Shown in pieces: positions 13,288-53,523 of a stretch of 64,000 nt of DNA. The notes beneath the pieces are model-generated. The model saw nothing but the letters and a program-made list of their open reading frames with translations, was not told where the DNA came from and did not search any database. Location: IMG/VR virus record IMGVR_UViG_3300047491_000255, positions 60,819 through 124,818 of that record, one strand, 5' to 3'. Origin of the DNA: a virus. A program made the translations under genes and the position numbers. The stretch's first letter is position 1; the number at the start of each line of letters is the position of its first letter.

Positions 13288-14148
13288 TTAGACGCGAGTG
13301 ATGGAAAGTACTTGGAGTGCAAAGGGATTATACGCCCCAATGCCTATTTGCTCGAAGATCGAGAATCCGATCAGACGGTTCTTAGGATCGTCGGCGGACA
13401 GGACCGTCAACTCCGTGCGAACCGGGATACGACCGAAGAACTCTGCTTCGCCGCACACGTAGACCGTACCTTCCGGCACGATACGTGACACGATGAGCTT
13501 TGCTCCCCAGAGCGTCGCCATCAGACCCGTCTTCAACAGAATCGCCTGAGTCTCGATGTCCAGCGTGTCCCGATCCCACTTACGCAGGTCGGCATAGTCC
13601 TTGGCATTCAGGAACACGGTAGCGACACGAATGTCGGTACGCTCCACGTTTGCGAAGGCGTCAGCCAATGCGTTTGCGGTCAGGTTGCCAGTCACCGGAA
13701 TGACAGGATTCGGATTCGTCGGGTCAGCAGCCAGAGCGTCCATGACTGCGAAAACCTTGCGGTCCTCCTCAGCCTGAATCTCCGCCTTACCCAAGTCAAC
13801 CGAACGTTCGATCAGGTCGAACCGACGTTGCTTGATCTCCGTGAGCTGGATTTCCGGGTTCGAGGCGATCTCGAACAGAGGGAACAGCACACGCTTCGGC
13901 TTTGCAACCGCCACGATGTTTTCGCCCTCTTCGCCAACGACGTATGCCGTGACGTTCGGGTCCTTGTCGTAGATCGGCAGTGCGCCATCGGGGAGAGCTT
14001 CCACGAAGAACCCCTTACGACCAACCGACATGTAGTCTCTCCGGCGACGGAGAGGCTGGATCATGCTCGCTGCCAAACGCTGACGCCCTGCGGCGGTGCG
14101 AATGTACTGAGAGATGATGTCTTGCTTCATTTGATTGTCTACAGCCAT
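13288..14148 (-). CDS. major capsid protein, HK97-type, 286 aa
   Basis: Recognised by overall pattern: helical N-terminal region (MKQDIISQYIRTAAGRQRL), an extended E-loop-like segment, the spine-helix-like EIKQRRFDLIERSVDLGK followed by EIQAEEDRKVFAVMDALAAD, a P/A domain with VFLNAKDYADLRKWDRD, LLKTGLMATLWGAKLIVS and the final strand IGIGAYNPFALQVLSITRV. Very strong ribosome-binding site (AAGGAGGATATC) and a strong terminator downstream, as expected for the most abundant protein. Length is typical. I cannot assign a named subfamily. Confidence 0.78.
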   Translation of the reverse strand: MAVDNQMKQDIISQYIRTAAGRQRLAASMIQPLRRRRDYMSVGRKGFFVEALPDGALPIYDKDPNVTAYVVGEEGENIVAVAKPKRVLFPLFEIASNPEIQLTEIKQRRFDLIERSVDLGKAEIQAEEDRKVFAVMDALAADPTNPNPVIPVTGNLTANALADAFANVERTDIRVATVFLNAKDYADLRKWDRDTLDIETQAILLKTGLMATLWGAKLIVSRIVPEGTVYVCGEAEFFGRIPVRTELTVLSADDPKNRLIGFSIFEQIGIGAYNPFALQVLSITRV

Positions 14149-14742: not shown

Positions 14743-15918
14743 TTACTTGAACGCTTCGCTGACATCTGGAGCCGACTGCCAGATGGAGCTAATGTCGACG
14801 CCTTCCGCACCAGCGGAGGCGACTCTCGGCTGCCCGCCGAGTTTCGATATGCCGGCCTTCTTCTGTGAAGCCTCGACCTTGCGGTCTGAGGTCACCGCTG
14901 TCATCCCTTCGGAGAACAGCACAGAAGCCAACCGTTCGTCTGCTTCAGGGTCAGGAGCAACCTCATCCTCCATCGCAGCGCTAAGCTCGATGTCGAACTC
15001 ATTCATTCCCTTCCTCGTTGCAGAAGCTTTCTTCTCGTCGACCTTATCGCCGACCTTCTCGTCAATCTTCTCGCCATCAGCGGCAACCTTGGGCTGCTCA
15101 TCTGAACCAGGCTTTTCGATAACAGGCTTGAGTTGAGACTCGGTAGCAGCCTTCTTCTCTTCGGTCTTTTCGACCTTGTCTTCGACCTTCTCATCTGCTG
15201 CTTTCTTCTCTTTCTTCTCGTCCTTCTCGTCTACCTTCTTCTGGATGAAGTCGGGGAGAGCGGCTTTGATAGCTTCAGAGACGATAGCGGCAATCATCGC
15301 CTTCATATCCTTGCCATCATCCTTCTCCTCAACCTTTTCATCGGCTGCTGCCTTCTTATCTTCTACCTTCTCCTCAACCTTTTCATCGGCTGCTGCCTTC
15401 TTATCATCCTTCTCCTCAACCTTTTCGTCGGCTGCTACCTTCTTATCTTCTACCTTCTCATCAGCCGCCTTCTTCTCATCAGCCGCATCCTCGTCCTTTT
15501 CGTCGACCTTCTCATCTTCGGCATAAAGCTTCTGCGTATCGGCGAAACGCTGAAGTGTGCGATCCATTGCCTGAGGACCCATAGCCATAAAGTCATGAGC
15601 CTGTGCCTCAACTACATCGTCGTCGACCTTCTCGCCGAGCAACAACATAGCCACACGAACTGCTTTATTGGCAGCGACACGCACAGAAGCGACAGTCGGG
15701 GACCGACCCCACACCTCTGGCACGCCAAAACCAATATCATCACGGCTGTCATCCTGCCACTGATGGCGCATGTCAGGAAGTTCGTGATTCACCTGCTGCT
15801 TGAAAGTGTGATACTGATCCCAACTTGGGTCCCTGCGGTCAGGCTGGTTGACATTGCCGGGATAAGGGGTTTGATCTGCCGCTGACCGGACACGGGATGT
15901 AAGTCTAACTCTATTCAT
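14743..15918 (-). CDS. K/E/D-rich prohead core or scaffold-like protein, 391 aa
   Basis: Start at 15918 after AAGGAGGATAG. Residues 90-320 are low-complexity, with repeated VEDKKAAADEKVEEK-type units interrupted by one helical block (MIAAIVSEAIKAALPDFIQK). The N-terminus (MNRVRLTSRVRSAADQTPYPGN) carries the basic helix plus Ala-Ala pattern shared by several head-locus proteins. Highly charged helical proteins next to the capsid gene are typical of scaffolding or core proteins that the maturation protease removes. Family not recognised. Confidence 0.6.
   Translation of the reverse strand: MNRVRLTSRVRSAADQTPYPGNVNQPDRRDPSWDQYHTFKQQVNHELPDMRHQWQDDSRDDIGFGVPEVWGRSPTVASVRVAANKAVRVAMLLLGEKVDDDVVEAQAHDFMAMGPQAMDRTLQRFADTQKLYAEDEKVDEKDEDAADEKKAADEKVEDKKVAADEKVEEKDDKKAAADEKVEEKVEDKKAAADEKVEEKDDGKDMKAMIAAIVSEAIKAALPDFIQKKVDEKDEKKEKKAADEKVEDKVEKTEEKKAATESQLKPVIEKPGSDEQPKVAADGEKIDEKVGDKVDEKKASATRKGMNEFDIELSAAMEDEVAPDPEADERLASVLFSEGMTAVTSDRKVEASQKKAGISKLGGQPRVASAGAEGVDISSIWQSAPDVSEAFK
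15176..15530. repeat. degenerate tandem repeats within the scaffold-like gene
   Basis: Units built on the codons for ADEKVEEK and DKKAAADEK are repeated many times with small changes; on the plus strand they read as TTC/CTT/CTC-rich sequence. A similar short tract occurs in the neighbouring gene near 16215-16290. Confidence 0.75.
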
Positions 15919-15946
15919 GTTTTCTATCCTCCTTGTGTGATACTTC

Positions 15947-16447
15947 TTATGATTTTGATTCGAACTTAGCCACACGAGCGTCAATCGAATCGGCGATCCT
16001 GTCGATACGCAGAGCCATTGCCGTCCGTCCAGACTTCTCAAGATATTCCGCCACAGCATCCAACCGGGCAGACGCACTCTTCAGCCGAGCCACATAACCC
16101 GTCGGAGCTGCATCCAACATTGAATCGTCGGTTGTCAGTTCCGTTCCGTGTTCGAGGTCCTCAACTTCGGTAAGAGATTTCTGCGTGATCTGTTCCTCCA
16201 CGCCATCCGGGTCAACCAAGGACGCCTTCTTCTCGTCCTTCTCGTCAACCTTCTCGTCAATCTCCTCGTCATCAGAATCATCAGCAGCTTTGAGCTTCAA
16301 CTCAAGCGCTTCGATCTGAGCCGCAAGAACCTGACGCTCGCTCGCTTCCTTCTTGTCGGCTTCATCTGCCGAATCATCCTTGTCAGCAGCGAAACGACTC
16401 TCAAGTGCGGCAACTCTCCGTGCCAAGTTTGTCATGTCTATGCTCAT
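15947..16447 (-). CDS. acidic coiled-coil head-locus protein, 166 aa
   Basis: N-terminal helix with LARRVAALESRFAADKD, a coiled-coil stretch (RQVLAAQIEALELKLKAADD), an acidic DEKVDEKDEKK tract like that of the downstream gene, and a C-terminal helix RLDAVAEYLEKSGRTAMALR followed by IDRIADSID. The last pattern recurs in phage head-associated proteins. Candidate core or scaffold component by context. Confidence 0.55.
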   Translation of the reverse strand: MSIDMTNLARRVAALESRFAADKDDSADEADKKEASERQVLAAQIEALELKLKAADDSDDEEIDEKVDEKDEKKASLVDPDGVEEQITQKSLTEVEDLEHGTELTTDDSMLDAAPTGYVARLKSASARLDAVAEYLEKSGRTAMALRIDRIADSIDARVAKFESKS

Positions 16448-16548: not shown

Positions 16549-16851
16549 TTATTCGCCGAGAAGTTCACGGGCGAGTGTTACGAGCTTCTTCGCAACCTTC
16601 ACCTTGTCCGCCTCGGAAACCGGCCAATTGTTATTCGCCTTGGCATTCTGATCGCCCTGATCTTTGAGATCAGCAGCGCCAGCAGGACGGCTCTCATTCA
16701 CCGTCTCCTTATCTTCCTTTGCCGCCTTGTCCGCCTCGCTAACCAGACCAGCATCATCAATTGCCTTCACAGACTTCTCTAAGCCTTCAACGGCTGCGAG
16801 AACTCCAGCAACGACGGTATCATCCCTACTTGTCATTCTGTCTCTGCTCAT
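16549..16851 (-). CDS. small acidic head-locus protein, 100 aa
   Basis: Helical, Lys/Glu/Ala-rich (VLAAVEGLEKSVKAIDDAGL, DKVKVAKKLVTLARELLGE) with a low-complexity middle. The C-terminal VAKKLVTLARELLG resembles the amphipathic helices at the start of other proteins here. No family recognised. Confidence 0.55.
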   Translation of the reverse strand: MSRDRMTSRDDTVVAGVLAAVEGLEKSVKAIDDAGLVSEADKAAKEDKETVNESRPAGAADLKDQGDQNAKANNNWPVSEADKVKVAKKLVTLARELLGE

Positions 16852-16924: not shown

Positions 16925-17467
16925 CTATATGTGAACAGCAGGATTCATTAAGTTGATTCCTGCTTTCGCAAATAAATCATCCCAATCTGTGTAACCAGAA
17001 AATAACTTCCCATTCGCCGTAATATCGAGCCTTCCGAAAGTCTCTCCATTACTAGCAGTCGTCCGAGTGATTGTAGCAGACCAAACAACACCATTTGTTA
17101 CACCACTGGCAACTTGCCCTTTTGCTCTCCCACCATATCTAGCAGCAACCTTCTGCATGATCCGGCGAACCTTCGACAAGAACTCTGATTGAGGCATACC
17201 AGCCGCTGCTTGCCTTTCATATGCCTTCTTCATGCCCTTCTCGTTCGTATTCAGCCTGTGACGAGTCTTAGGATTTATAACCACATACCGCCTATCTCCA
17301 AGATAATCATCATAATCTCCGATAGCCCAAACATCTGTATAGCCCGGAAGACCTTCAACAACTACCTTATCTCCATGCTTAAACTTCGGCTTAGGTCCTC
17401 CAGGAGCCGCAAGTCCAAAACCGGCTACGACCCTCTCAGCAATTCTCATCTCATTAAGTGGATTCAT
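16925..17467 (-). CDS. head-locus protein with targeting-like N-terminus, 180 aa
   Basis: Begins MNPLNEMRIAERVVAGFGLA, matching the RIAxRVxxxF pattern of other genes in this block. An SH3/KOW-like segment (FKHGDKVVVEGLPGYTDVW) follows, then a basic region and a beta-rich C-terminus (GRLDITANGKLFSGYTDWDD). Start chosen for the AGGGGAATCG site. Function unknown; probably a virion protein by context. Confidence 0.55.
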   Translation of the reverse strand: MNPLNEMRIAERVVAGFGLAAPGGPKPKFKHGDKVVVEGLPGYTDVWAIGDYDDYLGDRRYVVINPKTRHRLNTNEKGMKKAYERQAAAGMPQSEFLSKVRRIMQKVAARYGGRAKGQVASGVTNGVVWSATITRTTASNGETFGRLDITANGKLFSGYTDWDDLFAKAGINLMNPAVHI

Positions 17468-17480
17468 CGATTCCCCTTTT

Positions 17481-17643
17481 TCACACTGAACCATTTTCCT
17501 TTGCGAACTTCTCGATCTTAGCCCAACTAACTTCCATCCAACCAGCCGCCTCGACTCCCTGCCCCTGCATTGATTGCCAACTAAACACTGTTATCACATT
17601 TGATCCATGAAGCGATAGAAATCAATTCTCTGGCTATATTCAT
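17481..17643 (-). pseudogene. small gene interrupted by a frameshift
   Basis: ATGA-coupled start at 17643 gives MNIARELISIASWIKCDNSV and a stop. The next frame continues with convincing coding sequence (SNVITVFSWQSMQGQGVEAA, then WMEVSWAKIEKFAKENGSV) to a stop at 17481. A single-base shift near 17605-17615 would join them into one protein of about 53 aa whose start resembles the other N-terminal helices of this block. Could be a real mutation, an assembly error or recoding; no slippery site is obvious. Confidence 0.5.
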
Positions 17644-18230
17644 AGATACCCAATCACCAAGTCTCGAACTACAATATCGCCCGATCCATGAGTCGCACCC
17701 TTTTTATTTACAATGGCGATGGTCTTACCATTACGAGTCTTAATCATCCAACACATGTAGTCGCCACTATCATCTAGAGTCACCTTGCCGATATTCATCC
17801 TCTCCAATGGATGACGCAATGACAAGAAGCTGTTGTTTCTCACAACACCCGCAACTACCTCAAGATCAACATCAGCCGCCGTCTTATCCTCTGATGCCAC
17901 AATCGGATGACGAATCCCTTCATCTGTAATGATGAAGCATTTTCTTCCGGACGTCACGACATAGCCTCCTTCTGAAGGCTTCGGAACGTCCTTGAAGAAT
18001 TTATCCTTCCACCCAACAGGAAACTCGGCACCATGTATGTAGACAAAGACAGCATCTCCGTAACCTAATCCACCAAATCCAATCGTCTTGGCAGAAAGAG
18101 ACTGGTATTTGATTCCAGCCTTGGACAAACGAGAGATAACATCTCTCTTCGCCTTTGAGACAAGTCCAGGATCGCCTGCTGCCGAAACCATACGAGAGAT
18201 GATTCTATCAATTATGAGTGATTCATTCAT
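17640..18230 (-). CDS. head-locus protein with targeting-like N-terminus, 196 aa
   Basis: Starts MNESLIIDRIISRMVSAAGD, an amphipathic helix ending in Ala-Ala like its neighbours. A beta-rich domain with YGDAVFVYIHGAEFPVGWKD and GKTIAIVNKKGATHGSGDIV follows. ATGA overlaps at both ends place it in the same operon as the protease candidate. Family not recognised. Confidence 0.55.
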   Translation of the reverse strand: MNESLIIDRIISRMVSAAGDPGLVSKAKRDVISRLSKAGIKYQSLSAKTIGFGGLGYGDAVFVYIHGAEFPVGWKDKFFKDVPKPSEGGYVVTSGRKCFIITDEGIRHPIVASEDKTAADVDLEVVAGVVRNNSFLSLRHPLERMNIGKVTLDDSGDYMCWMIKTRNGKTIAIVNKKGATHGSGDIVVRDLVIGYL

Positions 18231-19225
18231 ACCAATCTCCCTGCAATTTTCCACAAACGATCTTCGCGCATGCGCCGGGCAATCTCAGCCTGAGCCACCC
18301 TCAATACAATCATCCCGCTCTTGTCTGCCACGCGCAACTTAAAAATGTCTTCCATCGCAATATGCAGCTTCTCAGTCGGGAATTCCAAGATGTTGGATGC
18401 AAACTTAGGAAGTTCGCTCACGTAATGATTTAGAACTGCTCCGTAGAAGGCGGGACGCTCAACCCATGACGCCTCGATGAACTTCACCGACTTGGGATCC
18501 CCAACCCTCTTCCCATACTTATCAACAATCGTGCGTCCGCATAACTCTGCTACAACACGTTCAACACCCTGTTTGTCTATGAACTTCGCCAACAACTCAT
18601 GGTCAAGGTGACGACAATTCGGGGTATTGTCCCCCATGACCTTGCCGCAACGGGAGCATGTCACCCAGTCCGCCAAGCAGCCCATGCTCATTGTTGTCAG
18701 TTCGCCACTGGCAATCTTCTTGACGAGCCGGTCATGCTTGCGATCCGTTGCGACAAGGATGTCGCAATAGAAGATATTCGCCGTCCGACCTTCCTTGTCG
18801 ATATAAGTCAGTGGACGAAGCACCGCATCCAACAACTTGCCCTTGGATAACTCAGGAACCTGAACGTGTTCGAGATAGTTTTCACCACCGACAAAAGTTC
18901 TGAACGTAGCCAGCAATACTTCATTGGTCCAAGCATTACCATTATTATTCACCAATTCATTACATGCCGGCTTGATGAGATAACCATTATCTTCTGTCTC
19001 TACCGAGGCGACAATGGTAACATGAGTAAATAAATACTTGTCTGCGGAGAACTTACTCCAGTCTACTTCCAAGTTCCTAGCGACTCGCATCCGCCCACAA
19101 CCAGATGCAAGACGACTCCACTCCTGACGAGGGTTCATCAGGACAGTGGCAATAGGCATATCGAGAGACACTGATCGTGCTCCCGCCGCCGCCAAACAAC
19201 TATCGCCCGTGCATCTTCTGTTCAT
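18227..19225 (-). CDS. candidate prohead maturation protease with zinc motif, 332 aa
   Basis: Central region contains FVGGENYLEHVQ (candidate catalytic His), DILVATDRKHDRLVKKIASG and LTTMSMGC, where the S-x-G is the expected nucleophile region of HK97/herpes-type prohead proteases. A CSRCGKV...NCRHL zinc-like motif is inserted after it, followed by ELCGRTIV and FIEASWVERPAFYGAVL. The layout matches prohead proteases of large phages as I know them. It lies with internal proteins that carry short N-terminal helices ending in Ala-Ala, possible substrates. Start at the ATGA overlap. Confidence 0.62.
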   Translation of the reverse strand: MNRRCTGDSCLAAAGARSVSLDMPIATVLMNPRQEWSRLASGCGRMRVARNLEVDWSKFSADKYLFTHVTIVASVETEDNGYLIKPACNELVNNNGNAWTNEVLLATFRTFVGGENYLEHVQVPELSKGKLLDAVLRPLTYIDKEGRTANIFYCDILVATDRKHDRLVKKIASGELTTMSMGCLADWVTCSRCGKVMGDNTPNCRHLDHELLAKFIDKQGVERVVAELCGRTIVDKYGKRVGDPKSVKFIEASWVERPAFYGAVLNHYVSELPKFASNILEFPTEKLHIAMEDIFKLRVADKSGMIVLRVAQAEIARRMREDRLWKIAGRLV

Positions 19226-19971
19226 TTCTTGAATGCCTTTAAGTCGGGGTGAGTGCCATTCTCCGTCATCTGCTTCCACTTCTCAATATCCGCTCCGAAA
19301 GCTCCCGGATGAGTGCTCTTCACCCCCATTTCATGTCTCATCTGATGGTACGAATACGAATACTCGGCCATCTCACGTATAGGCTTATCCGCGTACTCAC
19401 GAGCCATTTGTCTCGATGTCTCGCTCGCTTCATCCATCCACTTCTTGTCCTTGACAGTCTTCTGTCCCCATGCCTTCTGAGCCTTGGCCATCTCAACACA
19501 GGCTCCCCAAGCCTTCTCGTTAGTCGGCTTGCCTCCGATACTATCGGGAGCCTTCAACTCATCACTCTTCTTTGTCTCATATTTCTTGGCAGGAGAATCT
19601 TTCTTATCAGTCTTCACAACCTTATGATTAGATCGATTTGCGTCAGGATGCTCTTTCATGTACTTGTCAAAAGCGTCTTGGGTAGGGAAGTCCATACCGA
19701 GGACTTCCTTAGCAAGAAAAAGCAACTCTTTTGCTAATTTGCTGTTGTCCATTCCACTTCTCCACTTCTTGAACTGTTCGATCTCTACTTCTTCAAGAGA
19801 CACCTTCCGTCCAACCTTACGCTCCAGAGTCGCCCATTCCCGCATGATCTGACGGTAACGCATCTGAACCTGTGCTTTGGAGATTTCTCCATCACAATGC
19901 AAATTCTCTGGGCTTAGACGATTTGCCAGCCCAAAGAACTGCTTCATGATGTTTTGATGACTTTCTGCCAT
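19222..19971 (-). CDS. FPTQDAF-module protein, 249 aa
   Basis: Residues 74-115 (MDNSKLAKELLFLAKEVLGM followed by DFPTQDAFDKYMKEHPDANR) are nearly identical, in protein and DNA, to part of the gene at 19992. The N-terminal 70 residues are helical and charged; the C-terminal part contains KAWGACVEMAKAQKAWG. Probably an internal head or virion-associated protein by context. The MDNSKLAK segment may once have been a gene start, now fused to an upstream frame. Confidence 0.55.
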   Translation of the reverse strand: MAESHQNIMKQFFGLANRLSPENLHCDGEISKAQVQMRYRQIMREWATLERKVGRKVSLEEVEIEQFKKWRSGMDNSKLAKELLFLAKEVLGMDFPTQDAFDKYMKEHPDANRSNHKVVKTDKKDSPAKKYETKKSDELKAPDSIGGKPTNEKAWGACVEMAKAQKAWGQKTVKDKKWMDEASETSRQMAREYADKPIREMAEYSYSYHQMRHEMGVKSTHPGAFGADIEKWKQMTENGTHPDLKAFKK

Positions 19972-19991: not shown

Positions 19992-20999
19992 TTAGCTGCC
20001 GCTACTCTTCAAACGATCCTCGATGTGCTTCCGAGTCTCCGGGCTTAACGAGTTCCACTTGACTGGCTTGCCAAGATGACTCCCCTCTTTGCCCTCACCC
20101 CATTGAGAAACTCCACGCCCACCCTCACTTAAAGTCAGCATTGGAACCGAACCCTTGCTCACAGACGATTCCCAATCTTTGCCCTCTACGACAACCGCAT
20201 ACCTATCCAAAGTATCTCCACCACCATCGTAAACCCTGATCTTGGTATCATCCTTGTCGCCTTTGGACATCTTCCCGAAACTGTGAGTATGCTCTGATTT
20301 TGGAATTGACGTTTGCTTGGGAGCATCATTCATCTGATTGAATTTGACAATCTCATCGTTCGTCAAATCATTCGGGTCTTTCTTGTAGTGCTTCCCTATC
20401 TCCTTCATCTTCTGCTTATTCTTGCGCCGCTGCATCAAATTCATCGGATGAGTCTCAGGCTTGCCAGAATTAGTCTTCACAACTTTGTGATGGCTCCTGT
20501 TAGCGTCAGGATGCTCTTTCATGTACTTGTCAAAAGCGTCTTGGGTAGGGAAGTCCATACCGAGGACTTCCTTAGCAAGAAAAAGCAACTGTGAAGCTAT
20601 CTTGCTCGTATTCATAGTTGTCCTCACTGATGCTTCACGGTAATTCACCAAGGATATGAAAGCATTCGCTATCGAATCCACAATGGCCTTCGCGTCGAAT
20701 GGCTGCCGATCCTGAACCGGGACTGGATGTCGGGCAGGCCCGAAGTGAGCATCCACCAGAACCTTGCCGGGGTAGTAACTCCCCTCGTAAAGTTCGATTT
20801 CCAATGGAATCGAATGAAGCATGTCCAAAACGAATTTCGGAGCCCTGATTCTTCCACCAGACGCCACAGCCCGCCCACCCCGCCTACTGATCTCTCGAAC
20901 AACCTGCGGAATGAGTTTCTTGATGTCGTCGGAAAGAAACCAGTCCTCGCCCGCCACGAATCTTCGCGCCACTCGTTCGGCAATACGCTTCTCGTTCAT
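19992..20999 (-). CDS. FPTQDAF-module fusion protein, 335 aa
   Basis: Starts MNEKRIAERVARRFVAGED, the clearest example of the shared N-terminal helix. Residues 1-125 form one domain (LDMLHSIPLEIELYEGSYYPG), then an internal MNTSKIASQLLFLAKEVLGM followed by DFPTQDAFDKYMKEHPDANR begins a second unit that looks like a separate gene start fused in frame. The C-terminus has beta strands (RYAVVVEGKDWESSVSKG). The second unit has possible ribosome-binding-like sequence nearby, so internal initiation is possible. Confidence 0.55.
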   Translation of the reverse strand: MNEKRIAERVARRFVAGEDWFLSDDIKKLIPQVVREISRRGGRAVASGGRIRAPKFVLDMLHSIPLEIELYEGSYYPGKVLVDAHFGPARHPVPVQDRQPFDAKAIVDSIANAFISLVNYREASVRTTMNTSKIASQLLFLAKEVLGMDFPTQDAFDKYMKEHPDANRSHHKVVKTNSGKPETHPMNLMQRRKNKQKMKEIGKHYKKDPNDLTNDEIVKFNQMNDAPKQTSIPKSEHTHSFGKMSKGDKDDTKIRVYDGGGDTLDRYAVVVEGKDWESSVSKGSVPMLTLSEGGRGVSQWGEGKEGSHLGKPVKWNSLSPETRKHIEDRLKSSGS

Positions 21000-21078
21000 C
21001 GTTCTTATATCCCTTGTATGATGAAGGGCTGGCGGGCGACGGTGATCGCCCTCGGAAACCAGCCCTCGGGAACCGATC

Positions 21079-21333
21079 TTACGAATGATTGACGGTTGGC
21101 GGACGATAAGCACCCTTGTTGCGCTTCGTGCTTGTCACCCCACCAAGGGCAACATTCTTGCCGACGAACTCGTTCGTGTCTTCCACCACTGTCGGCTGCT
21201 TCTGCCCGCCAACAGAGTTGAAGTTCGTAACCCGAGCCGGAGTCGCAACCTTGTTCTTCCCAAGGAACGTGATTGCCTCGTCCTCACGAACTCGACCAGC
21301 CGTAACTGTCTGATATGCCTTCGAATATACCAT
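21079..21333 (-). CDS. hypothetical small protein, 84 aa
   Basis: Beta-rich, low-complexity protein (AYQTVTAGRVREDEAITFLG, NFNSVGGQKQPTVVED). Good site AGGAGGG before the ATG. In its place before other head genes it may be a minor virion protein. No family recognised. Confidence 0.6.
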   Translation of the reverse strand: MVYSKAYQTVTAGRVREDEAITFLGKNKVATPARVTNFNSVGGQKQPTVVEDTNEFVGKNVALGGVTSTKRNKGAYRPPTVNHS

Positions 21334-21786: not shown

Positions 21787-24090
21787 TTAACCTCTCCTGA
21801 TCCTTCTCTGAAGCTCTTTCTTGATCGCCTTTGCCGTCTCGCCCTTATACGCGGCTGCGTTGGACAAGAAATATGCGACGACGGATATTCCAGAATCCTG
21901 TCCATACATATCACTCACGTTCTGCAACGATGACATGGCCTCCAGATATGGCTTGGCTCCATAATTGACGTTCTTCCAATCTGTGTAGATTAGAGAAGCG
22001 ATCTGACTCAACGTCATTCTGGGAAGGTCTGCCAAATCCTTCGAGTCAACATAAGCGAATCTGCCACGCCGAGTCAACATAACATCACCTGCTTTCCTTT
22101 TTCCACTTTCTGCCTGATCAATCCACTTCTTCGCCATTTCAACACTGGCTGGCACTTCTCCAAACGCCCGATGTCCAGACGAATCTTTAACAAAGAAGTT
22201 GTCGCCAGACTTTTCGATGGTATAGCCCTTGTATTTCTGACCACTCGCTATAACTGCCTCACCTTGCGCTTCCTGACCAGATTCGTTCTTTGTGGTTACG
22301 TCCACCTCGACGCCATCGGGAACCTTGACTTCGATTTTGGTGACAGCCTTGCTAGTCGGAACCTTGAATCCGCAGGTCGGGCAAGTCAAAAGCTTGTCTG
22401 AGCGAGTGAACTTCTCCTTGTTCATCTCTACACGGCACTTAGGACAGGTCGCAGAGCCACTCTCTTGCTCTTGCTGCGTCAGCCTAAAGGTTCTATCAGG
22501 GGCGCACCAATACATCGACCTGCGTGACCGCTGAATGTCACTCATGCTCATCTCGCCAGTCGCCTTGATAGAAGAAGCACTCTGCCCCCTACGATGACAC
22601 AATCCCCGCCGAATCAGTTGCTCGGCTACCCGACCATAACTGCCCTGCAGATGATGAATAGTCCCTGAATCAATCAACTCCTGAAAGAACTCGACGATCT
22701 CGTTCTGATCCATCCCTCCATCCTCATACTGCATGATCTTCTTTACCAAATCAGAATTCAATGCCGTGCGAGAAACTGAAGAAATTTTTTCAATTTCTTC
22801 CTCGACAGTTCTCTGTGCAGAAGGCTCATTGCCAGAAGTTGCCTTCCTCAAAAACAGATTCATTTCACACTCTGGGCAACTAGAAGTGCTCGACTCAAAG
22901 GCAAGCTCCTTCAATCCAGCCTTGATGCTTGCAACACGAGGATTCACATCAGCGAATTCATTGGCCTCATCATACAGTTGATACGCCAAGTCCTTCATCA
23001 CAGATGTTCCACCAGATACAGGAACATACAACCCATGCGTATCCGGCTCCCCACAAAACTGATCCATAGGAGGATTCGTTGCCATTCTTGCCGATGTCTC
23101 TTTATATCCTTTCCTCTTCAATTCTTTCCCACCACTAGCCGTCTTGGCAATAGGACTCCGATCCCGCAAGTCGGTATCGATCATCAGCAAGCCACTTCCG
23201 GTGTCTGCCAGTTGCACCTTCTGATGCAGAGTCAGAGCAGCATCCTCTTCCTCGATCTGCTCGCTCAGGAAGTCCATAACCAGCTTACTAGTCGCCGGGT
23301 TATCCTGTTGCTTTGCCAACTGTCCAATTCTATTCCAGTCCTGAGTCACGCCCATCTCATGATCCAACACAAGACGTGTCAGATCGATGATTTCCATTCC
23401 AGCATCCAGAACAGGTCCGGGAATAGTTGGCAGCACAAGCGTTGAACCCGTGTCCACGAGATAGTTATAGACCTTCATGGCATGGTCAATCTCGTCATCT
23501 CCCTGACTCTCAAACCAGTTCTGGAACCCCACAAGACCCTTGCTCTGACAGATTGCGGCAATCATGTAGTAAAGATATGACGAATAGAACTCTGCTCCGA
23601 CCTGCCGATTCAACAAAACTTCCATGTCCTCTGGAACAAAATCGGTCTGGGCTGCTGAGTCAGCCGACTCTTCCACTACTTCGACGCCGATTTCTGGCAC
23701 ATCAACGATGTCAGAAACGTCTGCCCGCATACGACGACCTAGATCAGAACCGCTCTTACGAACTCCAACGCCTTCTTGCAGCTTTCTGCGCCTCTCTTCT
23801 TCACGCTTCTGAGATTCTGTTTTGATAGGCATAAATGATGATGTTTTGGCAGCATCTTTGTTCCCACCGAAAAACGGCATAGGCATGATCTCGTCGGGAT
23901 CGTGTTGGCTTTCTGGACCACCACCCCACGCAACTGTAATCTTATTCGTCTTGGTATCAACGTCCCTGACAACGCCAGTAAACATTTGGTCTGTAACCAC
24001 TACTGGCTTGACCACGTCGCCTGGCTTATACATCAGAATCGCATCACCGTAAATCGTGCCATTCAAAAGACTACTACGTCTGCTTTTCAT
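21787..24090 (-). CDS. 767-aa head-locus protein with embedded ferritin domain and zinc ribbons
   Basis: Residues about 15-70 form an SH3/KOW-like domain (YKPGDVVKPVVVTDQMFTGV). Residues 155-308 are a bacterial ferritin: LLNRQVGAEFYSSYLYYMIA, QNWFESQGDDEIDHAMKVYN, LDHEMGVTQDWNRI, FLSEQIEEEDAALTLHQKV. Ferroxidase-site residues corresponding to E. coli FtnA Glu17, Glu50, His53, Glu94 and Gln127/Glu130 all appear conserved (Glu167, Glu200, His203, Glu245, Gln278 and a following Glu). The C-terminal half has Cys pairs (CPECEMN, CPKCRVEM...CPTCGF). Start chosen for GGAGGGCTCGAT. Gene lies among head genes, so a virion-associated iron-binding or oxidising role is possible. Confidence 0.82.
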   Translation of the reverse strand: MKSRRSSLLNGTIYGDAILMYKPGDVVKPVVVTDQMFTGVVRDVDTKTNKITVAWGGGPESQHDPDEIMPMPFFGGNKDAAKTSSFMPIKTESQKREEERRRKLQEGVGVRKSGSDLGRRMRADVSDIVDVPEIGVEVVEESADSAAQTDFVPEDMEVLLNRQVGAEFYSSYLYYMIAAICQSKGLVGFQNWFESQGDDEIDHAMKVYNYLVDTGSTLVLPTIPGPVLDAGMEIIDLTRLVLDHEMGVTQDWNRIGQLAKQQDNPATSKLVMDFLSEQIEEEDAALTLHQKVQLADTGSGLLMIDTDLRDRSPIAKTASGGKELKRKGYKETSARMATNPPMDQFCGEPDTHGLYVPVSGGTSVMKDLAYQLYDEANEFADVNPRVASIKAGLKELAFESSTSSCPECEMNLFLRKATSGNEPSAQRTVEEEIEKISSVSRTALNSDLVKKIMQYEDGGMDQNEIVEFFQELIDSGTIHHLQGSYGRVAEQLIRRGLCHRRGQSASSIKATGEMSMSDIQRSRRSMYWCAPDRTFRLTQQEQESGSATCPKCRVEMNKEKFTRSDKLLTCPTCGFKVPTSKAVTKIEVKVPDGVEVDVTTKNESGQEAQGEAVIASGQKYKGYTIEKSGDNFFVKDSSGHRAFGEVPASVEMAKKWIDQAESGKRKAGDVMLTRRGRFAYVDSKDLADLPRMTLSQIASLIYTDWKNVNYGAKPYLEAMSSLQNVSDMYGQDSGISVVAYFLSNAAAYKGETAKAIKKELQRRIRRG

Positions 24091-24155: not shown

Positions 24156-24560
24156 TTAGAATTCTATAGGCCACATAGGTCTAAATCGCCTATCAGTCAA
24201 AGCGACCTTCTTGATGTTCCCTATGACAAAACCCTTGATGTGTTTGTCATCCATATCATAGGCAAAAAGCAGCTTCTTAATTCCAGACTTCAACCTTCTA
24301 TATCTCAGACTATAGGGGCAAACAATATACCTCTTCGTTTCCCCGGTTGTTTCCTTCTTGTAGATGATGATGATCTGAACCACCCTCAATGCTGCCTCTC
24401 GAATCGCCATCCGAGTATTTCTCAAGGCATACAGAGTCCCATAAGCGGGAGTCTTCCCGACCCTCTTAGGTTTCCTTTTGGGTGCCTTCTTTTCCTGTTC
24501 GGAGATAAAAGTCAGCCGACTAATATCATTCTTTAGTGCTTCTGCAAAAGAAAGTGGCAT
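24156..24560 (-). CDS. WYL-like domain protein, 134 aa
   Basis: The C-terminal 80 residues (IIIIYKKETTGETKRYIVCP, YSLRYRRLKSG, LLFAYDMDDKHIKGFVIGNI) have the order of strands and spacing of WYL domains, which bind nucleic acid or small ligands in bacterial regulators. No HTH accompanies it. Stand-alone short WYL-like proteins occur in phages; its job is unknown. Placed between a head gene and a Cys-rich gene. Confidence 0.55.
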   Translation of the reverse strand: MPLSFAEALKNDISRLTFISEQEKKAPKRKPKRVGKTPAYGTLYALRNTRMAIREAALRVVQIIIIYKKETTGETKRYIVCPYSLRYRRLKSGIKKLLFAYDMDDKHIKGFVIGNIKKVALTDRRFRPMWPIEF

Positions 24561-24561: not shown

Positions 24562-24879
24562 TTATGGCTCCCTGTTTGATGCCGTCACCGCATCCGTTAA
24601 TCCACATCTATCTGCCTCAGAGCCGGTTCCGTGGATATAAATATAGTCTGCCTCGTCCAAATCGTCTTCAGTTGGTGTGGTCTTGACTTGATCTGCCATG
24701 TTATTAGACCATGAAGCACACTGAATTCCATTATGATCGTCAATCGTCCTAGCCTCGACTCCATATCTTGCAAGCCAATACATTCCAGGACAATAGGTGC
24801 GATGAACACAAGATTTACATCCCTGACCTACTGGTCTTTTAACAGCACCCATTGATGGATACGAAAATGAGAAAGCCAC
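24562..24879 (-). CDS. small cysteine-motif protein, 105 aa
   Basis: Contains GCKSCVHRTYCPGMYWLARY and GIQCASWS: four Cys in a C-x2-C-x5-C...C pattern with a YW-x2-RY segment, suggestive of a small metal- or Fe-S-binding fold. The same arrangement is seen in other phage proteins of unknown role. Acidic C-terminal tail. Confidence 0.6.
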   Translation of the reverse strand: MAFSFSYPSMGAVKRPVGQGCKSCVHRTYCPGMYWLARYGVEARTIDDHNGIQCASWSNNMADQVKTTPTEDDLDEADYIYIHGTGSEADRCGLTDAVTASNREP

Positions 24880-29997: not shown

Positions 29998-30300
29998 TCA
30001 TTTTCCAAAAACCTGCATCACCTTGAGAATATCTGCTAGGTAAGGCTTAATAGCAGTCTCCATCAAGTCTTTCACTGCATCCACACCAGCCTGTTCTGGC
30101 ACACTTGCCGCCTTAATCTGTGGCAAATTTTCATCAATAACTGCCACAGCCGCTATGAAGGTATCTAGTGCCTGATCTACATTCGCCAGAGCCACATCCT
30201 CATCTGGAGAAACCACTGCCGTCCTAACATGTGAAACCGAATCGCCTGTCATCTCAGCCGCCACATTATCAGTCATTTTAGCTATCCTTCTATCATTCAT
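29998..30300 (-). CDS. small helical protein with targeting-like N-terminus, 100 aa
   Basis: Begins MNDRRIAKMTDNVAAEMTGD, again the basic helix pattern of the head block. The rest is helical (VDQALDTFIAAVAVIDENLP, ILKVMQVFGK). Overlaps the CCA-enzyme gene by 4 bp. Function unknown. Confidence 0.55.
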   Translation of the reverse strand: MNDRRIAKMTDNVAAEMTGDSVSHVRTAVVSPDEDVALANVDQALDTFIAAVAVIDENLPQIKAASVPEQAGVDAVKDLMETAIKPYLADILKVMQVFGK

Positions 30301-34844: not shown

Positions 34845-37800
34845 CTATCCTCCTGCTTCATCAGCTACCGCCTGTAACGCCTCATCTATGTCTTGAGGCG
34901 AAGCGTCCGGGGGCAGACTATCTGCCACTTCCTTCGCAACGGCTTCAGGATCGGGCTGGGAGCCCTCTGTCTCAACCCCCTGATCTTGACCCTGATCCGC
35001 TTCTTGCCCCCCGCCTTCGCCCTCTGGAGCCACTCCACCATCAGTCTGAGGCGTCTCTTCTCCCTGTTGTAACTCATCTCCTCCGCCTTCTCCTCCGCCT
35101 TCTTGAGGAGGACCACGGAATTTGAGTCCAAGATACTTCGATACTTTCTCAACAACGTCTGTCTGCTGAACAACCGCTCGACCAACCTCCGTGTTGACTT
35201 CTTCAGTCATCCGATTGAATGTTGAATCATTGGCTGTAAACAAACCAGACAATAATTTCGAATGCATCTCATCGACATTAAGGTTGAACAACTCATATAT
35301 GACTTCAATAGGCAAACTGCCCTTGCTGTAAAGCTGGAACAACGAATCAAATACTTCGGCATTATCCCGGATCGTAAGCCGATTGAAGCCAATCGAAGGA
35401 TACCAATACTTCCTCGCCCCGTTCTGATCCTCCTCGAACCATCCGTGAGCCTCACACACCGGAATGAAAATCTGCTTCTCGATGAAGTTTCTCATAACCT
35501 CACGAGTCAGCAGAAACATCGTATTCAGGATTTCAACAGTAATCTTTGTTCCTGAGAATGCCCCCTCACCAGTCAAAAGCTCCCTTGTGACACCCAAAGC
35601 GGCAAAGACCTGATTTTCGATCTGTTCGTATTCCCGGCTGTAATCAAGCATCCGTTCCTGAACGCCAATCTGTTGCCATGTCACCTCGTAGTTGGTGATA
35701 ACAGAGTATTCCGGGTCCATATACGACAAATCGACCTGAGTCCGCAGATTGTCAAGTTCGTCAGGCATGAGTCCAGGAGCCGTGATAAGATTCTTTGGAG
35801 TCATGTTTCGACTAGCCAGACTGAGCTGCGTATACCGATAATGCTCCTTCTGAAGCATGGGAACCAGCACCCTCTCCAATACAGACGCTCCAAGGTCCAT
35901 ATAGGGCGAACGCCTACGGGCGATATGATGGACGAATGAACCCGTCATTGGGTCCGTATCCATAACGATACAACCCTCCTTCAAGACCATTTCCTTCATC
36001 TCTTTCGGCACACCCTCTACGATCTTCTCATTCATTGCCGAACGATCATAGTCTCCCTTTGGAGTCTCACTTGCCGTTTCACCCTCACCCTGAGACTTGA
36101 TTAGCGAAATCAACCTCTGAGGACGATACTCGACCCGCTTGTTTTCCGAGAATGGATACTGGAATATATAGACTTCCTCTGGCGGAAGCATGACCGCGCG
36201 ACTCCACATCTTCTTCTCGTCATCCCACTCCAGGAACCAGTAAACATTACCTATCATGTTCAATTCCCACAATGTGGATTGACACATCTCGAAGGCATTG
36301 ATAGTTTCAAGTTGATAGGTGCAAAATGCTAAAATCTCCTCACTCAGCTTCTTTGTCAGTTTTCCACCAGCCTTGGGCATATTCAGGGTGAGTTTCGACA
36401 TTGGCAGGTCTGAGAGAAGCTCCAATGCCCGGCCAATGTACGCATCCGTATTGTGAGTAGCCATTCCATAAACAAGGAACGTTCTGTCTTCGTATTTTTC
36501 GCCCTTGGTCTGGAAATTCCAAATCAGTCCACTAAACATCCTATGCGTGATTTTTCTTACAGGGAGCAATAGGTTCCCGATATGGTTGTACTTCCTGTGT
36601 CTGAATTCTTTGTCAGATGAGTCCCACTTGGTATATGCAACAATACTATTGGCAGACAAAGGAGGTAAGAATATCCTCCATCCTTCTCCTATAGGAGTTT
36701 TGGAATCTCCAAACCCATATACTGTGATCTTTCTTTTTGACGGGGTAAGCCCAACACGAACCATCATCAGGTAAAACTGGTGAGCCATATCTGCTGAAAC
36801 CGTTGTTCCGTCGAACTGCCCTTCCGCCTCATCATGGTCTCGGTTTCCATCCCCATTCAGCCACGTTCCAATAATGTGTTTTACAAGCTCATCATCGGCC
36901 TGAAAAACACCACTGGAAAACTTCTTGGTGTGAGAACCAGTTCCACAGTTATCAGAAACCCATGTAGCAAACTCTCGATTCCACAGTCTCAAAGACGTAC
37001 CCGATGGACGATCTGGATAGTTGTATTCAGAAGGCTCTTTTCCGAATTCCCTCACACACAGGTCTTTGATTTCACGGATAATTTCAGTTTCATGTGATCC
37101 TAGAGACCAAGTAACCGCCTCTGGATAACCTTTCTTGTCAAAATTTACATTCCCTTCGGAGACGTAGTATCCAACGAGACGAGCACGTTCTGTTGAAAAG
37201 ACAAGTCCGAATCTATTCTGTGTCTTCGGAACAATCAGACAATCGCCCTCACGAATGTCTTTTGCCTCCAACCATTCGGGCGCAAAGTCAACATCAACAG
37301 ATGTTTGCCTGTGTTCTTTACCATTTTCATCTTTCACTCTGTTGTGATGACGGCAAATATGCTCTGATCTCAATACAAGAAATGGATGTTCGGGTGTTAC
37401 TTCCAAATCATTCCACCTGTTCGCCTCCACATCAAAACGAATAACAGCTCCTTCGTAATGCTGTGTCGTTACTTGTTCTATCTCCGTGTTCTGCCCCTTG
37501 GCATTGATAACCAAATCTCCGGGCTTAAACGACCACAAAGGAGCTTCTGTCCCGTCTGCTTTCGTTATCAATACATTCGGATTAGTGAAACAACGAGCCC
37601 AATATCGATACCACGAATACTTCTCATGCAGGGTGACGGGCCAATACAGCATTCCGCCATTCTGCTCATTCATCTGAACAAAATAAGTTGGGATGTCGTA
37701 TGCGCCCGTGCGATCACTCAGGCCATAGGCATAAGAACTACGATATGCCTCTAACTTGTATCCTGTACTATAGGGAGCCGAAACCTGAGAGGTATCAACC

Positions 37801-37955
37801 AACATACCAGCTTCACGATTCCGACTGTCAAATCCCCCTGTTCCTATCGCTTTTCTCGCAATCCTAGCCCGAACAGGGTCTGCTGGACCGACTGTAACGT
37901 CTGGACGAGACAACCCGGCACTGGAAGCCGTCTTAATTTTCTTAGCATTTGCCAT
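34845..37955 (-). CDS. portal protein interrupted by an intein, 1036 aa
   Basis: Extein (655 aa) fits a dodecameric phage portal: long helices around YTQLSLASRNMTPKNLITAP, PDELDNLRTQVDLSYMDPEY, TNYEVTWQQIGVQERMLDYS, then FAALGVTRELLTGEGAFSGT and an acidic Gln/Glu/Gly-rich tail. Together with the terminase upstream this is the packaging module. Residues 122-502 are an intein with splice junctions at Cys122 and His501-Asn502/Thr503. The host protein must splice to be functional. Confidence 0.85.
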   Translation of the reverse strand: MANAKKIKTASSAGLSRPDVTVGPADPVRARIARKAIGTGGFDSRNREAGMLVDTSQVSAPYSTGYKLEAYRSSYAYGLSDRTGAYDIPTYFVQMNEQNGGMLYWPVTLHEKYSWYRYWARCFTNPNVLITKADGTEAPLWSFKPGDLVINAKGQNTEIEQVTTQHYEGAVIRFDVEANRWNDLEVTPEHPFLVLRSEHICRHHNRVKDENGKEHRQTSVDVDFAPEWLEAKDIREGDCLIVPKTQNRFGLVFSTERARLVGYYVSEGNVNFDKKGYPEAVTWSLGSHETEIIREIKDLCVREFGKEPSEYNYPDRPSGTSLRLWNREFATWVSDNCGTGSHTKKFSSGVFQADDELVKHIIGTWLNGDGNRDHDEAEGQFDGTTVSADMAHQFYLMMVRVGLTPSKRKITVYGFGDSKTPIGEGWRIFLPPLSANSIVAYTKWDSSDKEFRHRKYNHIGNLLLPVRKITHRMFSGLIWNFQTKGEKYEDRTFLVYGMATHNTDAYIGRALELLSDLPMSKLTLNMPKAGGKLTKKLSEEILAFCTYQLETINAFEMCQSTLWELNMIGNVYWFLEWDDEKKMWSRAVMLPPEEVYIFQYPFSENKRVEYRPQRLISLIKSQGEGETASETPKGDYDRSAMNEKIVEGVPKEMKEMVLKEGCIVMDTDPMTGSFVHHIARRRSPYMDLGASVLERVLVPMLQKEHYRYTQLSLASRNMTPKNLITAPGLMPDELDNLRTQVDLSYMDPEYSVITNYEVTWQQIGVQERMLDYSREYEQIENQVFAALGVTRELLTGEGAFSGTKITVEILNTMFLLTREVMRNFIEKQIFIPVCEAHGWFEEDQNGARKYWYPSIGFNRLTIRDNAEVFDSLFQLYSKGSLPIEVIYELFNLNVDEMHSKLLSGLFTANDSTFNRMTEEVNTEVGRAVVQQTDVVEKVSKYLGLKFRGPPQEGGGEGGGDELQQGEETPQTDGGVAPEGEGGGQEADQGQDQGVETEGSQPDPEAVAKEVADSLPPDASPQDIDEALQAVADEAGG
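36450..37592 (-). mobile_element. intein with LAGLIDADG-type endonuclease region, 381 aa
   Basis: Begins CFTNPNVLITKADGT, with a nucleophilic Cys; block B-like TPEHPFLVLR holds the conserved T-x-x-H; block G ends YGMATHN before Thr503. Between them two dodecapeptide-like motifs (LVGYYVSEGNV and IIGTWLNGDGN) mark a DOD homing endonuclease. It splices itself from the portal protein and may spread between phages by homing. Insertion is in a conserved-looking portal stretch (WYRYWAR before, TDAYIGRALELL after). Confidence 0.88.
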
Positions 37956-38563: not shown

Positions 38564-40402
38564 TTACCTTACCATCATAGGCCGACGCCTGCCTATGTTA
38601 TACAGCCCACGAGGATGATCCCCATGCTTTTTAATCCTGTTCACGATAAAAGATGCTTGTGTGTCTGCTCTCCCCATTCCATGAGAAGATACTATTCCAC
38701 CACCTGCTCCGGTAGCGACATTAGCTGGTCTTTCCTTGAAACCATTATAACAGCTCCAAACGGCTCTGCAGTATGCATCAGATAAATCGTCGTGAGCACC
38801 TCGACGAGCAGGGGCACGAACTATCGTCTTACCATTATATCCCTCGCTGTCTGGATTAGACTTTCCCGTCCTCTTTTCTGCCTCCAACGTCAACATCTCT
38901 TTAATCAACACCGGATGATCGTAAAGTTCCAGCAATTGTTCGGCATAAAGCCTTTTGACAACCTGATACACCTCGCTGTTCAGAATATCTGTAAATGTCT
39001 GCATTTCAAACTGAGGAAGATGTTCTGATTTAAACAGTTCCGCCAGACCATAGCCATTACTCTGATCGAAAACCCCACTTTTAGCCGGGAACCATTTCAC
39101 CAATTCTTTGATCTCGTCAACAATGTCTGACATCCTCAGCAAATCAAGATTAGCATACTTATTACAACACTGATAGATGCTACCATCAATCTCCCATACA
39201 TCCGAAGACCCTGAATACCACACACTAGCATGATCAAGGACGATTTTATTAGTATCTTGATCTTTATGAACGATAGCCACAGAACTTCCGTCTTTCTTGA
39301 ATCCAAGATCGATGCCATAGTAATACTGAACATCATGAACGCCACGATTAGGAGCTGGCACATTTAAGACACACCGTTTAAATTCCTCCTCATCATCAAT
39401 CCATGCCGTAATCGTATCCGAGAACTCACCACCGTATTCACACATGAATTTTGTGCGATTAGCCTTACGTGCCGCCTTTAGAATTGCTGGTTCGCACCGT
39501 GGGGCATTCACCATTGTCGAATACATTTTGAATGCCAGCGTGATTTCTGGGTTCTGAAAAGAGTCCTGCCATAACTCATAAAACTTGCCGAACTTGGCAT
39601 ATGGAGAAGAAATGCAGATAACTTTACCATCACGCCTAAAAGTCATTCGAGAAGGTTCAAGAGCGTTGTAAACTTCCGATCCTGAAAACCTACCACTATT
39701 ATCGATAAAGAACGCCATCTCGTCCATGATGATTACAATAGCGTTCTTACCACGAAGAGAGTTTGAAGCACAACCACCAGACAATGACACCAAGCTCGCT
39801 CTTTTTCGACCCTGCAATTTAATGTCCGCATCGGTCTGAATATCAAAATAAGTCATTGTTGACCGCATGACTCTATCCTTGATATATGGACATTTCATCG
39901 CCAGTGTCTGAGCCGTATCGAATAAGTCTCCAGCCTGATCATCTGTTGGAGCTACATTCAAAATAGAGATAGTTGATCCGGGACTCTGATTGTAAAACTT
40001 CGCCGGGTCAGGTTGCCTCAATAAACGATACATCTCATAGTTTGAAATACAAGCTGCCAGGAGCGACTTCCCGCTGCGCCGCCCCCATGCGAGAATTAGG
40101 TTCTGCCAAACCTTTCCTTCTGTTTCCTCTACATTACACCGCTTCTCGGCATACAACCAACGAAGAAACTCTTTTTCCGTAAACCGATAAAGTATACGCT
40201 CATTAACGAGATCAGGAACTTCTATGGTTTTGTATTCCGTATCGAGATGAAGACCATAAAGGCATTTAAGTGTAAACTTCTGAGTAGGGGTTAGTGAAAC
40301 ACTAAGTCCCCATGGTGATTCTACAAACGTGATGATGTCCGCAGTCTCTGCAGTCCCAGTAACAAATTCCTTTGAAATCTCAGAAAGAAGGTTTGTTGGC
40401 AT
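38564..40402 (-). CDS. terL: terminase large subunit, 612 aa
   Basis: ATPase: Walker A AWGRRSGKS (105-113), Walker B VIIMDEMA (Asp227, Glu228) and coupling segment CISSPYAKFGKFY. Nuclease: YYGIDLGFKKDGSS (Asp365 region), GVFDQSNGYG and AHDDLSDAY, the three acidic positions of the RNase H-like domain. It pumps DNA into the prohead through the portal and cuts concatemers. Length is in the usual range for T4-like and large-phage terminases. Confidence 0.95.
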   Translation of the reverse strand: MPTNLLSEISKEFVTGTAETADIITFVESPWGLSVSLTPTQKFTLKCLYGLHLDTEYKTIEVPDLVNERILYRFTEKEFLRWLYAEKRCNVEETEGKVWQNLILAWGRRSGKSLLAACISNYEMYRLLRQPDPAKFYNQSPGSTISILNVAPTDDQAGDLFDTAQTLAMKCPYIKDRVMRSTMTYFDIQTDADIKLQGRKRASLVSLSGGCASNSLRGKNAIVIIMDEMAFFIDNSGRFSGSEVYNALEPSRMTFRRDGKVICISSPYAKFGKFYELWQDSFQNPEITLAFKMYSTMVNAPRCEPAILKAARKANRTKFMCEYGGEFSDTITAWIDDEEEFKRCVLNVPAPNRGVHDVQYYYGIDLGFKKDGSSVAIVHKDQDTNKIVLDHASVWYSGSSDVWEIDGSIYQCCNKYANLDLLRMSDIVDEIKELVKWFPAKSGVFDQSNGYGLAELFKSEHLPQFEMQTFTDILNSEVYQVVKRLYAEQLLELYDHPVLIKEMLTLEAEKRTGKSNPDSEGYNGKTIVRAPARRGAHDDLSDAYCRAVWSCYNGFKERPANVATGAGGGIVSSHGMGRADTQASFIVNRIKKHGDHPRGLYNIGRRRPMMVR

Positions 40403-52586: not shown

Positions 52587-52673
52587 TGGTGGGAAAAGAG
52601 GGACTCGAACCCTCACACCCTTTCGGGCACAAGCTCCTAAGGCTTGCGTGTCTGCCAATTCCACCACTCTCCC
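52587..52673 (-). tRNA. tRNA-Leu (TAG)
   Basis: Minus strand: acceptor GGGAGAG pairs with TTTTCCC, then A-CCA encoded at 52587-52590. Anticodon stem CAAGC/GCTTG with loop CTTAGGA, anticodon TAG. Long variable arm and TTCGAGT T-loop. Confidence 0.93.
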
Positions 52674-52683
52674 GGAATCTATT

Positions 52684-52995
52684 TTAGCCCTGCGGTCCCT
52701 GAATCCCGCCTTGTGGTCCCTGAATCCCGCCTTGTGGTCCAACCACCGGAGGATTCTTCACTTCTGGCTCAATAGGCTGTCCATTGTCATCCTTCGACTT
52801 GTGGAAGTATGACATAAATACCATTGTGATGACAGCAAAGATAGCCTCCACACTCACAGGGAGAGGTTTGTCTGGATATTTCATATATGCTTGAAAATCC
52901 AGCAGAGTCATCAAAAGCAAACATGTTCCAGCAATGATTGTTAATAGCCAACGCCCGCTCGAAACCTGCACTACGACTCGATCAGTATTCTTCAT
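52684..52995 (-). CDS. small two-helix membrane protein, holin-like, 103 aa
   Basis: Two transmembrane helices (LLTIIAGTCLLLMTLLDF and SVEAIFAVITMVFMSYF) separated by a short loop, then a basic/acidic tail ending in repeated GIQGPQG. The DNA encoding the tail has 21-bp repeats. Topology and size fit a holin or spanin-type protein, but no lysis genes flank it, so this is uncertain. Overlaps the ThyX-like gene by 4 bp. Confidence 0.5.
   Translation of the reverse strand: MKNTDRVVVQVSSGRWLLTIIAGTCLLLMTLLDFQAYMKYPDKPLPVSVEAIFAVITMVFMSYFHKSKDDNGQPIEPEVKNPPVVGPQGGIQGPQGGIQGPQG
52687..52740. repeat. 21-bp repeats at the end of the membrane protein gene
   Basis: The plus strand has GGTCCCTGAATCCCGCCTTGT repeated twice and part of a third time. 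They encode the IQGPQGG units of the C-terminal tail. Confidence 0.85.
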
Positions 52996-53501
52996 ATGAT
53001 ACTCCTTTTAACACACATTCCACATGATTTCATCTCGTGACAGAAACCTCCCCTATACTCGCACTCTGGAACCAGAAACATCACCAAATCAGAATCAACC
53101 CACTTCATTTCATCCTTGATTGCCAACATGACATCCCGAGTCTCCTTGTGAGACTTGGAACAAAGTCTCTTCCGAGCCATATTGATAAGCGTCTGAGCAT
53201 TGACCAACATTCCATGATCCACAGGAGTTTTCCGATTCACATCCCCTGTACCACCACGATCATCCCTATTGGTCTGAATAAAATGTTCAGCACCAATCTT
53301 ATGCCGAACGAAATGTGTGCTTACAAACGAGGGAATCCCAGTCATCTCAATCCAAAAAACTTGGGTCCTACAAGGACTGTGTTCGCAATCATAGATTTCT
53401 TTCAACGTCATCTTGGAAGGTTTGCCATTCCCCCTCCATGTCATCTCACAAGCTCGTCTCATCAGAGACTCATCCGTCAATTTCTTAATAACAATCTTCA
53501 T
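52992..53501 (-). CDS. ThyX-like thymidylate synthase family protein, 169 aa
   Basis: STHFVRHKIGAEHFIQTNRD resembles the ThyX signature (RHRxxSxNExSxRY region) and NAQTLINMARKRLCSKSHKE with VPECEYRGGFC is typical of short phage ThyX-like proteins. FAD-dependent ThyX makes dTMP from dUMP. The canonical motif is altered here, so catalytic activity is uncertain; it may be a divergent or inactive member. Promoter TTGACT/TATAAT lies 23 bp upstream. Confidence 0.68.
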   Translation of the reverse strand: MKIVIKKLTDESLMRRACEMTWRGNGKPSKMTLKEIYDCEHSPCRTQVFWIEMTGIPSFVSTHFVRHKIGAEHFIQTNRDDRGGTGDVNRKTPVDHGMLVNAQTLINMARKRLCSKSHKETRDVMLAIKDEMKWVDSDLVMFLVPECEYRGGFCHEMKSCGMCVKRSII

Positions 53502-53523
53502 GCTGGCTCCTTTTTACGCCATC

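Follow-up and report, generated by a model that had tools for sequence, protein, structure and literature searches.

The gene at positions 21787..24090 (minus strand) of the window, a 64,000-nucleotide stretch of virus record IMGVR_UViG_3300047491_000255, encodes a 767-aa protein with an embedded FtnA-like ferritin. More aptly, it is a conserved phage head-locus protein with KOW and zinc-ribbon domains that has acquired the ferritin and other modules. Phage Dps proteins are already known; what appears to be new is a maxi-ferritin fused into a head-locus protein, with its ferroxidase site intact across diverged large phages. The fusion suggests that viruses carrying it handle iron in the course of particle assembly or within it, and we put at about 50% the probability that the ferritin becomes an internal head protein and guards the DNA against iron and peroxide damage. 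Whether antioxidant iron proteins reside inside the capsid of some large phages thus becomes a testable question.

The open frame is complete, and its start was placed at the ATG at 24090 because a GGAGG lies a few bases upstream and the homologues begin at the same M-K-x-R-R; the in-frame ATG at 24114 would give 775 aa. The interval 23167-23628, which the first-pass annotation had marked as ferritin, covers precisely aa 308-155 when read on the minus strand in the 767-aa frame. The AT-rich promoter that had also been claimed was not supported, as the upstream gap measures 65 bp and none of the promoter-like sites (7, versus 5.2+/-2.2 in shuffles) falls within it.

Residues 149-311 (23158..23646, minus strand) make up the ferritin module with helices A-E. 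Numbered in the 775-aa frame, aa 167-301 matched PF00210 with E=1.7e-23 and 83.5 bits (curated cut-off 24.5), and the top solved relative in the PDB sequence comparison was the Archaeoglobus ferritin 3kx9 (E=5.9e-23). An alignment of 10 phage proteins underlies the AlphaFold model, which places helices A-E at aa 154-183, 187-213, 234-261, 265-294 and 299-310 with pLDDT mostly 85-95, and shows a four-helix bundle plus helix E; outside the module the confidence is lower or mixed, with long low-confidence linkers. On superposition by Foldseek, the module overlays the solved ferritins of E. coli, Vibrio and Archaeoglobus with TM scores of 0.89-0.94 and an rmsd of about 1.3-1.6 A; with Pyrococcus included, the TM scores (target) are mostly 0.88-0.94. 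The family match, the five-helix model and the PDB matches hence agree with the ferritin domain first proposed at residues about 155-308. A chance or low-complexity match is ruled out by the E-values, the fold and the conservation of the ligands. No second PF00210 match was found elsewhere in the known part of the window's genome.

When aligned with E. coli FtnA (L191), the module is identical at E17, Y24, E50, H53, E94, E126, Q127, E129 and E130, and the same nine residues are unchanged in 4/4 ferritin-bearing relatives, that is, in 5/5 phage proteins. The metal-site role of each aligned position, including E49 as site C, we take to be as in FtnA. The accessory E49 is D in the window protein and G in contig L005, so the diiron centre, first described as fully conserved, is identical in the ligands of sites A and B and altered at site C. 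Thus the module shares with FtnA (PF00210) the five-helix fold, the A/B ferroxidase ligands, Y24 and Q127, while it differs in being one part of a larger, 767-aa phage protein with several domains, in forming its own clade and in the replacement of site-C E49 by D or G. Because it scored 60.5 bits against the NCBIfam non-heme ferritin equivalog NF007638, far below the cut-off of 178, the module is taken to hold a ferritin domain and is not filed as an FtnA orthologue. The module very probably binds and oxidises Fe(II), and a real iron function is likely because the ferritin is conserved in four further contigs.

Those four contigs (L005, L006, L011 and L046) were identified in IMG/VR searches and have this gene with the ferritin at the equivalent position; all of them exceed the PF00210 cut-off. 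Their modules show 74, 72, 53 and 47% identity to that of the window, respectively, close to the core-domain identity of the same gene, as would be expected if ferritin and core domains were inherited together. The nine ligands are kept across phage proteins diverged down to 45% identity. Between the window and L005, dN/dS is 0.045, but in every pair dS is close to or at saturation, and the value therefore indicates purifying selection only roughly. The five phage modules grouped as a single clade (SH-aLRT 100) when placed in a tree together with 80 cellular ferritins. The cellular genes in this tree are all (80/80) 162-246 aa long, and hence none of them is a fusion of the window type. Recent capture from bacteria was rejected, as no cellular ferritin in the scan exceeded about 39% identity and the 80 fetched cellular ORFs were unfused. 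Host contamination or an assembly artefact was likewise rejected, since IMG/VR lists the sequence as a virus and the fusion recurs, with its synteny conserved, in four other contigs. Two further viral contigs, L015 and L016, encode a free-standing 168-aa ferritin that groups with cellular ferritins.

Most relatives lack the ferritin in this gene, which indicates that it is dispensable in the lineage, although these absences are not firm because the records are often fragments. On the poorly resolved core-gene tree, ferritin presence requires 4 changes, and its history may be a single old gain followed by losses, or transfers. No full-length match to the protein was found among 50,697 phage records (cultured relatives). 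Single modules matched there in actinophages (the DUF7417 region and the C-terminal domain), and ferritin-only matches came from unannotated records.

The conserved core of the protein consists of a KOW/SH3-like domain and a zinc ribbon, to which a 'GDPDTHG' block and a helical domain at the C-terminus are often added. The KOW/SH3-like N-terminal domain (aa 1-76; 23863..24090, minus strand) has invariant columns among 8-12 homologues. An SH3/KOW-like domain next to the ferritin, as proposed in the first-pass annotation, is weakly supported by fold: the region forms a beta-barrel in the models and gives weak Foldseek matches to Spt5/NusG KOW, PWWP and Tudor domains (E about 0.005-0.1). Uncharacterised Gordonia phage proteins were also matched in the fold search with the core protein. 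The Cys-rich part described after the ferritin was found to contain one zinc-ribbon domain (CPxC...CPxC; aa ~521-593; 22312..22530, minus strand) with invariant Cys residues; the family model built in this analysis matches it at aa 529-601 of the 775-aa frame. Between ferritin and zinc ribbon lie the 'GDPDTHG...GGxSxM' block (aa ~338-380; 22951..23079, minus strand), common to most homologues including ferritin-less ones, and a DUF7417 module (aa ~447-503; 22582..22752, minus strand; PF24192, E=2.6e-14). In the scan of relatives, this DUF7417 insertion was found in the window only and the other homologues gave no match. The C-terminal helical domain (21793..22056, minus strand) matched phrog_13953 with E=2.6e-20 and is a separate, tagged gene in L002 (L002:3086-3415). 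Modules of the core protein are gained and lost between relatives, the ferritin being present in five and DUF7417 in the window alone. Both the DUF7417 and C-terminal modules match small actinophage hypothetical proteins, one set of which adjoins an HNH endonuclease gene.

The placement of the gene among head genes is well supported by synteny with the portal, protease, scaffold-like and major capsid protein genes, all on the minus strand. Directly upstream are genes for a 134-aa protein (24156..24560), found upstream of the core gene in 11/11 related loci tabulated, and a Cys-rich 105-aa protein (24562..24879) with conserved synteny. Further upstream in the window are the portal gene (34845..37955; phrog_16240, E=4.6e-16 on aa 500-841), apparently interrupted by an intein as judged by eye, and the terminase large subunit gene (38564..40402; phrog_2, E=2.7e-26). 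On the other side lie the prohead (head maturation) protease (18227..19279; phrog_18299, E=6.6e-12, and synteny) and a scaffold-like E/K-rich protein with [KR]xAS sites (14743..16077), assigned by composition and position and conserved in relatives. The major capsid protein is encoded by a separate 286-aa gene without ferritin (13288..14148; weak PF05065, tblastn). Read as far as each available stretch extends, the order in the 11 related loci is 105-aa protein, 134-aa protein, core gene, protease, scaffold-like, decoration-like and major capsid protein. The major capsid protein of the window shares 94% identity with its L002 counterpart and about 70% with the one from an uncultured 485-kb phage, in which a short ferritin-less core protein lies between portal and protease. 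By tblastn, it shows 48.6% identity to the annotated major head protein of Tunturiibacter phage Tunturi_5 and 38.1% to that of Bacillus phage G. The host gene belongs to large tailed phages distantly related to Bacillus phage G. Two neighbouring genes in this locus, 19222-19971 and 19992-21113, have a near-identical internal block FLAKEVLGMDFPTQDAFDKYMKEHPDANRS in common, pointing to a putative module duplication.

Two short motifs speak for an internal head protein. 'KTAS'-like motifs were first spotted post hoc beside the ferritin module, and the general form [KR]xAS was therefore tested statistically. The head genes of the window contain 21 copies versus 6.4 expected, a count reached in 0/300 per-protein shuffles, while the other genes of the window's genome contain 20 versus 18.7 expected. 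In 13 loci unused in the discovery, genes upstream through the capsid gene contain 79 versus 22 expected and those downstream of the capsid gene 36 versus 21; scrambled control motifs showed no excess in these loci. When each homologous family is represented by a single protein, the excess upstream drops to about 2.4-fold, and some draws fail to reach significance. Within the window the motif occurs across 13288-42328 (minus strand), in proteins including the portal N-terminus, the scaffold-like protein and a 990-aa protein. An exact [KR]xAS precedes the ferritin module in L005, L006, L011 and L046, and another follows it by a few residues in the window, L011 and L046; that of the window is KTAS at aa 316-319 (23134..23145, minus strand), a candidate prohead-protease site directly after the module. 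The simplest reading of the enrichment is that [KR]xAS would be the recognition site of the prohead protease of this phage family.

The second motif, [IV]AxELLxIAK, is located at a terminus, or close to one, in numerous small head-locus proteins without obvious relationship (27 versus 0.9 expected). It is amphipathic and was seen in L002, L010, L049, L011 and L005 as well as in the window genes 16549-16851, 19222-19971 and 19992-21113. Where the zinc-ribbon and C-terminal domains are separate genes, they carry it too (L049:2477-2710 and L002:3086-3415, respectively). The N-terminus of the 767-aa protein itself (MKSRRSSLL) lacks [IV]AxELLxIAK, which sits on sibling genes and split-off modules. 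T4 internal proteins reach the prohead via N-terminal capsid-targeting sequences of 10-20 residues, and the longer propeptides of SPN3US head proteins are thought to target the prohead likewise (PMC5694885). By analogy, [IV]AxELLxIAK is a candidate capsid-targeting tag, and both the core protein and the parts split off from it may act as internal proteins of the head. T4 Alt and the internal proteins, like the SPN3US proteins, resemble the present case in being encoded by head-locus genes, and the window's family has candidates for both a targeting peptide (on siblings) and a protease motif. The T4 and SPN3US cleavage sites, however, end in E, unlike the candidate [KR]xAS. Moreover, we know of no ferritin among internal or ejection head proteins of the T4/SPN3US type.

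A mechanism can be proposed. An FtnA-like ferritin, probably catalytically competent and presumably oligomeric, is built into the conserved KOW/zinc-ribbon protein of the head-assembly locus. This protein would be made alongside the capsid genes, presumably late, and most likely enter the prohead as an internal protein, possibly with trimming by the prohead protease. In the prohead, or in the next host after ejection, the ferroxidase site would oxidise and sequester Fe(II) using O2 or H2O2, and this sequestration would shield the genome from Fenton damage. Against this reading stand the absence of [IV]AxELLxIAK from the protein's own N-terminus, the lack of ferritin in most relatives, the actinophage matches of the DUF7417 and C-terminal modules, and the smaller [KR]xAS excess after reducing each family to one protein; virion proteomics were found for none of the relatives.

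The main rival to an internal head protein is an intracellular, non-virion role. Here a late protein would sequester iron in the infected cell, and thereby lessen oxidative damage in late replication or alter the iron supply to the host, with its position in the head operon serving timing only. We consider this possible, at clearly lower odds than entry into the head. Precedents exist in Lactobacillus phages, which encode a Dps near replication genes that is taken as host protection (PMC6669764), and in Gratiaviridae phages, whose Dps and Mn-catalase are tied to oxidative-stress tolerance (PMC8008677). These are also ferritin-superfamily proteins in tailed phages, although the genes concerned are Dps or Mn-catalase and the window has a maxi-ferritin module inside a head-locus protein. 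The open-access literature searched offered nothing nearer than such Dps genes and yielded no description of a maxi-ferritin within a head-locus protein of a phage. Some of the non-ferritin modules, moreover, match actinophage hypothetical proteins that carry no structural annotation. However, there is no need for a ferritin acting in the cell to be fused to a conserved core protein of the head locus, its position is fixed between the portal and protease genes, and the locus contains a targeting-like peptide and [KR]xAS motifs.

A more elaborate version of the internal-protein reading is that the 767-aa protein is a modular precursor, cut at [KR]xAS by the prohead protease, which would free the ferritin in the capsid and make the head an iron-handling compartment. 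This we regard as rather doubtful. If true, it would be a viral counterpart of ferritin-loaded encapsulins, in which an HK97-type shell holds an encapsulated ferritin cargo. The likeness, an HK97-type shell gene together with a ferritin, is an analogy only, as the ferritin of the window is unfused to the capsid protein and belongs to a genome-packaging phage, not a protein compartment.

It is improbable that the ferritin fold serves mainly as a self-assembling structural scaffold, such as a 24-mer platform within the prohead core, and not for iron chemistry. The module does sit within a multidomain assembly-locus protein, and helix E, which makes four-fold contacts in ferritin cages, is conserved; yet retention of all nine metal-site residues at only 45% identity is unexpected for a purely structural role. 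Least likely is that the next host receives the ferritin iron or has it presented to it. A ferritin is able to store iron, and a Ferrojan horse hypothesis has been put forward for phages; tails and siderophore receptors are its subject, however, whereas this gene lies in the head locus, and the analysis yielded no direct support for such a role.

Other members of the ferritin superfamily occur in the same phage family. Among 43 records searched with PF00210, which are often fragments, the strong matches within the family were the four fusions and L001. In the core-gene tree, L001 groups with the window, L005 and L006 (clade support 100/97), and its core gene lacks the ferritin. It encodes instead a separate DPSL-type ferritin (L001:14509-15147; PF00210 E=9.7e-20; best PDB match 2vzb, E=6e-39) two genes downstream of the prohead protease start, and the C-terminal tail of this protein resembles that of the window protein 16925-17494. 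Weak PF00210 matches in L104, L105, L106 and L107 (up to 618,736 bp) are Dps-like genes whose H/H/D/E ferroxidase residues are intact; in these four huge relatives they lie about 20 kb upstream of the capsid gene. DPSL (2vzb, bacterioferritin-related) and Dps thus resemble the module of the window in lying close to genes for the head or for packaging in related phages, and differ from it in being other ferritin families encoded by separate genes. That three ferritin-superfamily types (FtnA-like, DPSL and Dps) occur near head or packaging genes within a single phage family points to repeated selection for control of iron or oxidants near the genome as it is packaged.

Some further features of these loci were also observed. 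The prohead protease of L001 (L001:10706-14020) contains two Hint/LAGLIDADG (intein-like) insertions. Inside the head locus of the window, 30297-31775 encodes a tRNA nucleotidyltransferase (phrog_2244, E=8.6e-57) with the tag-like N-terminus MNIIAEIMSMAKEL. The right end of the window (52587-63638) carries thirteen minus-strand tRNA genes.
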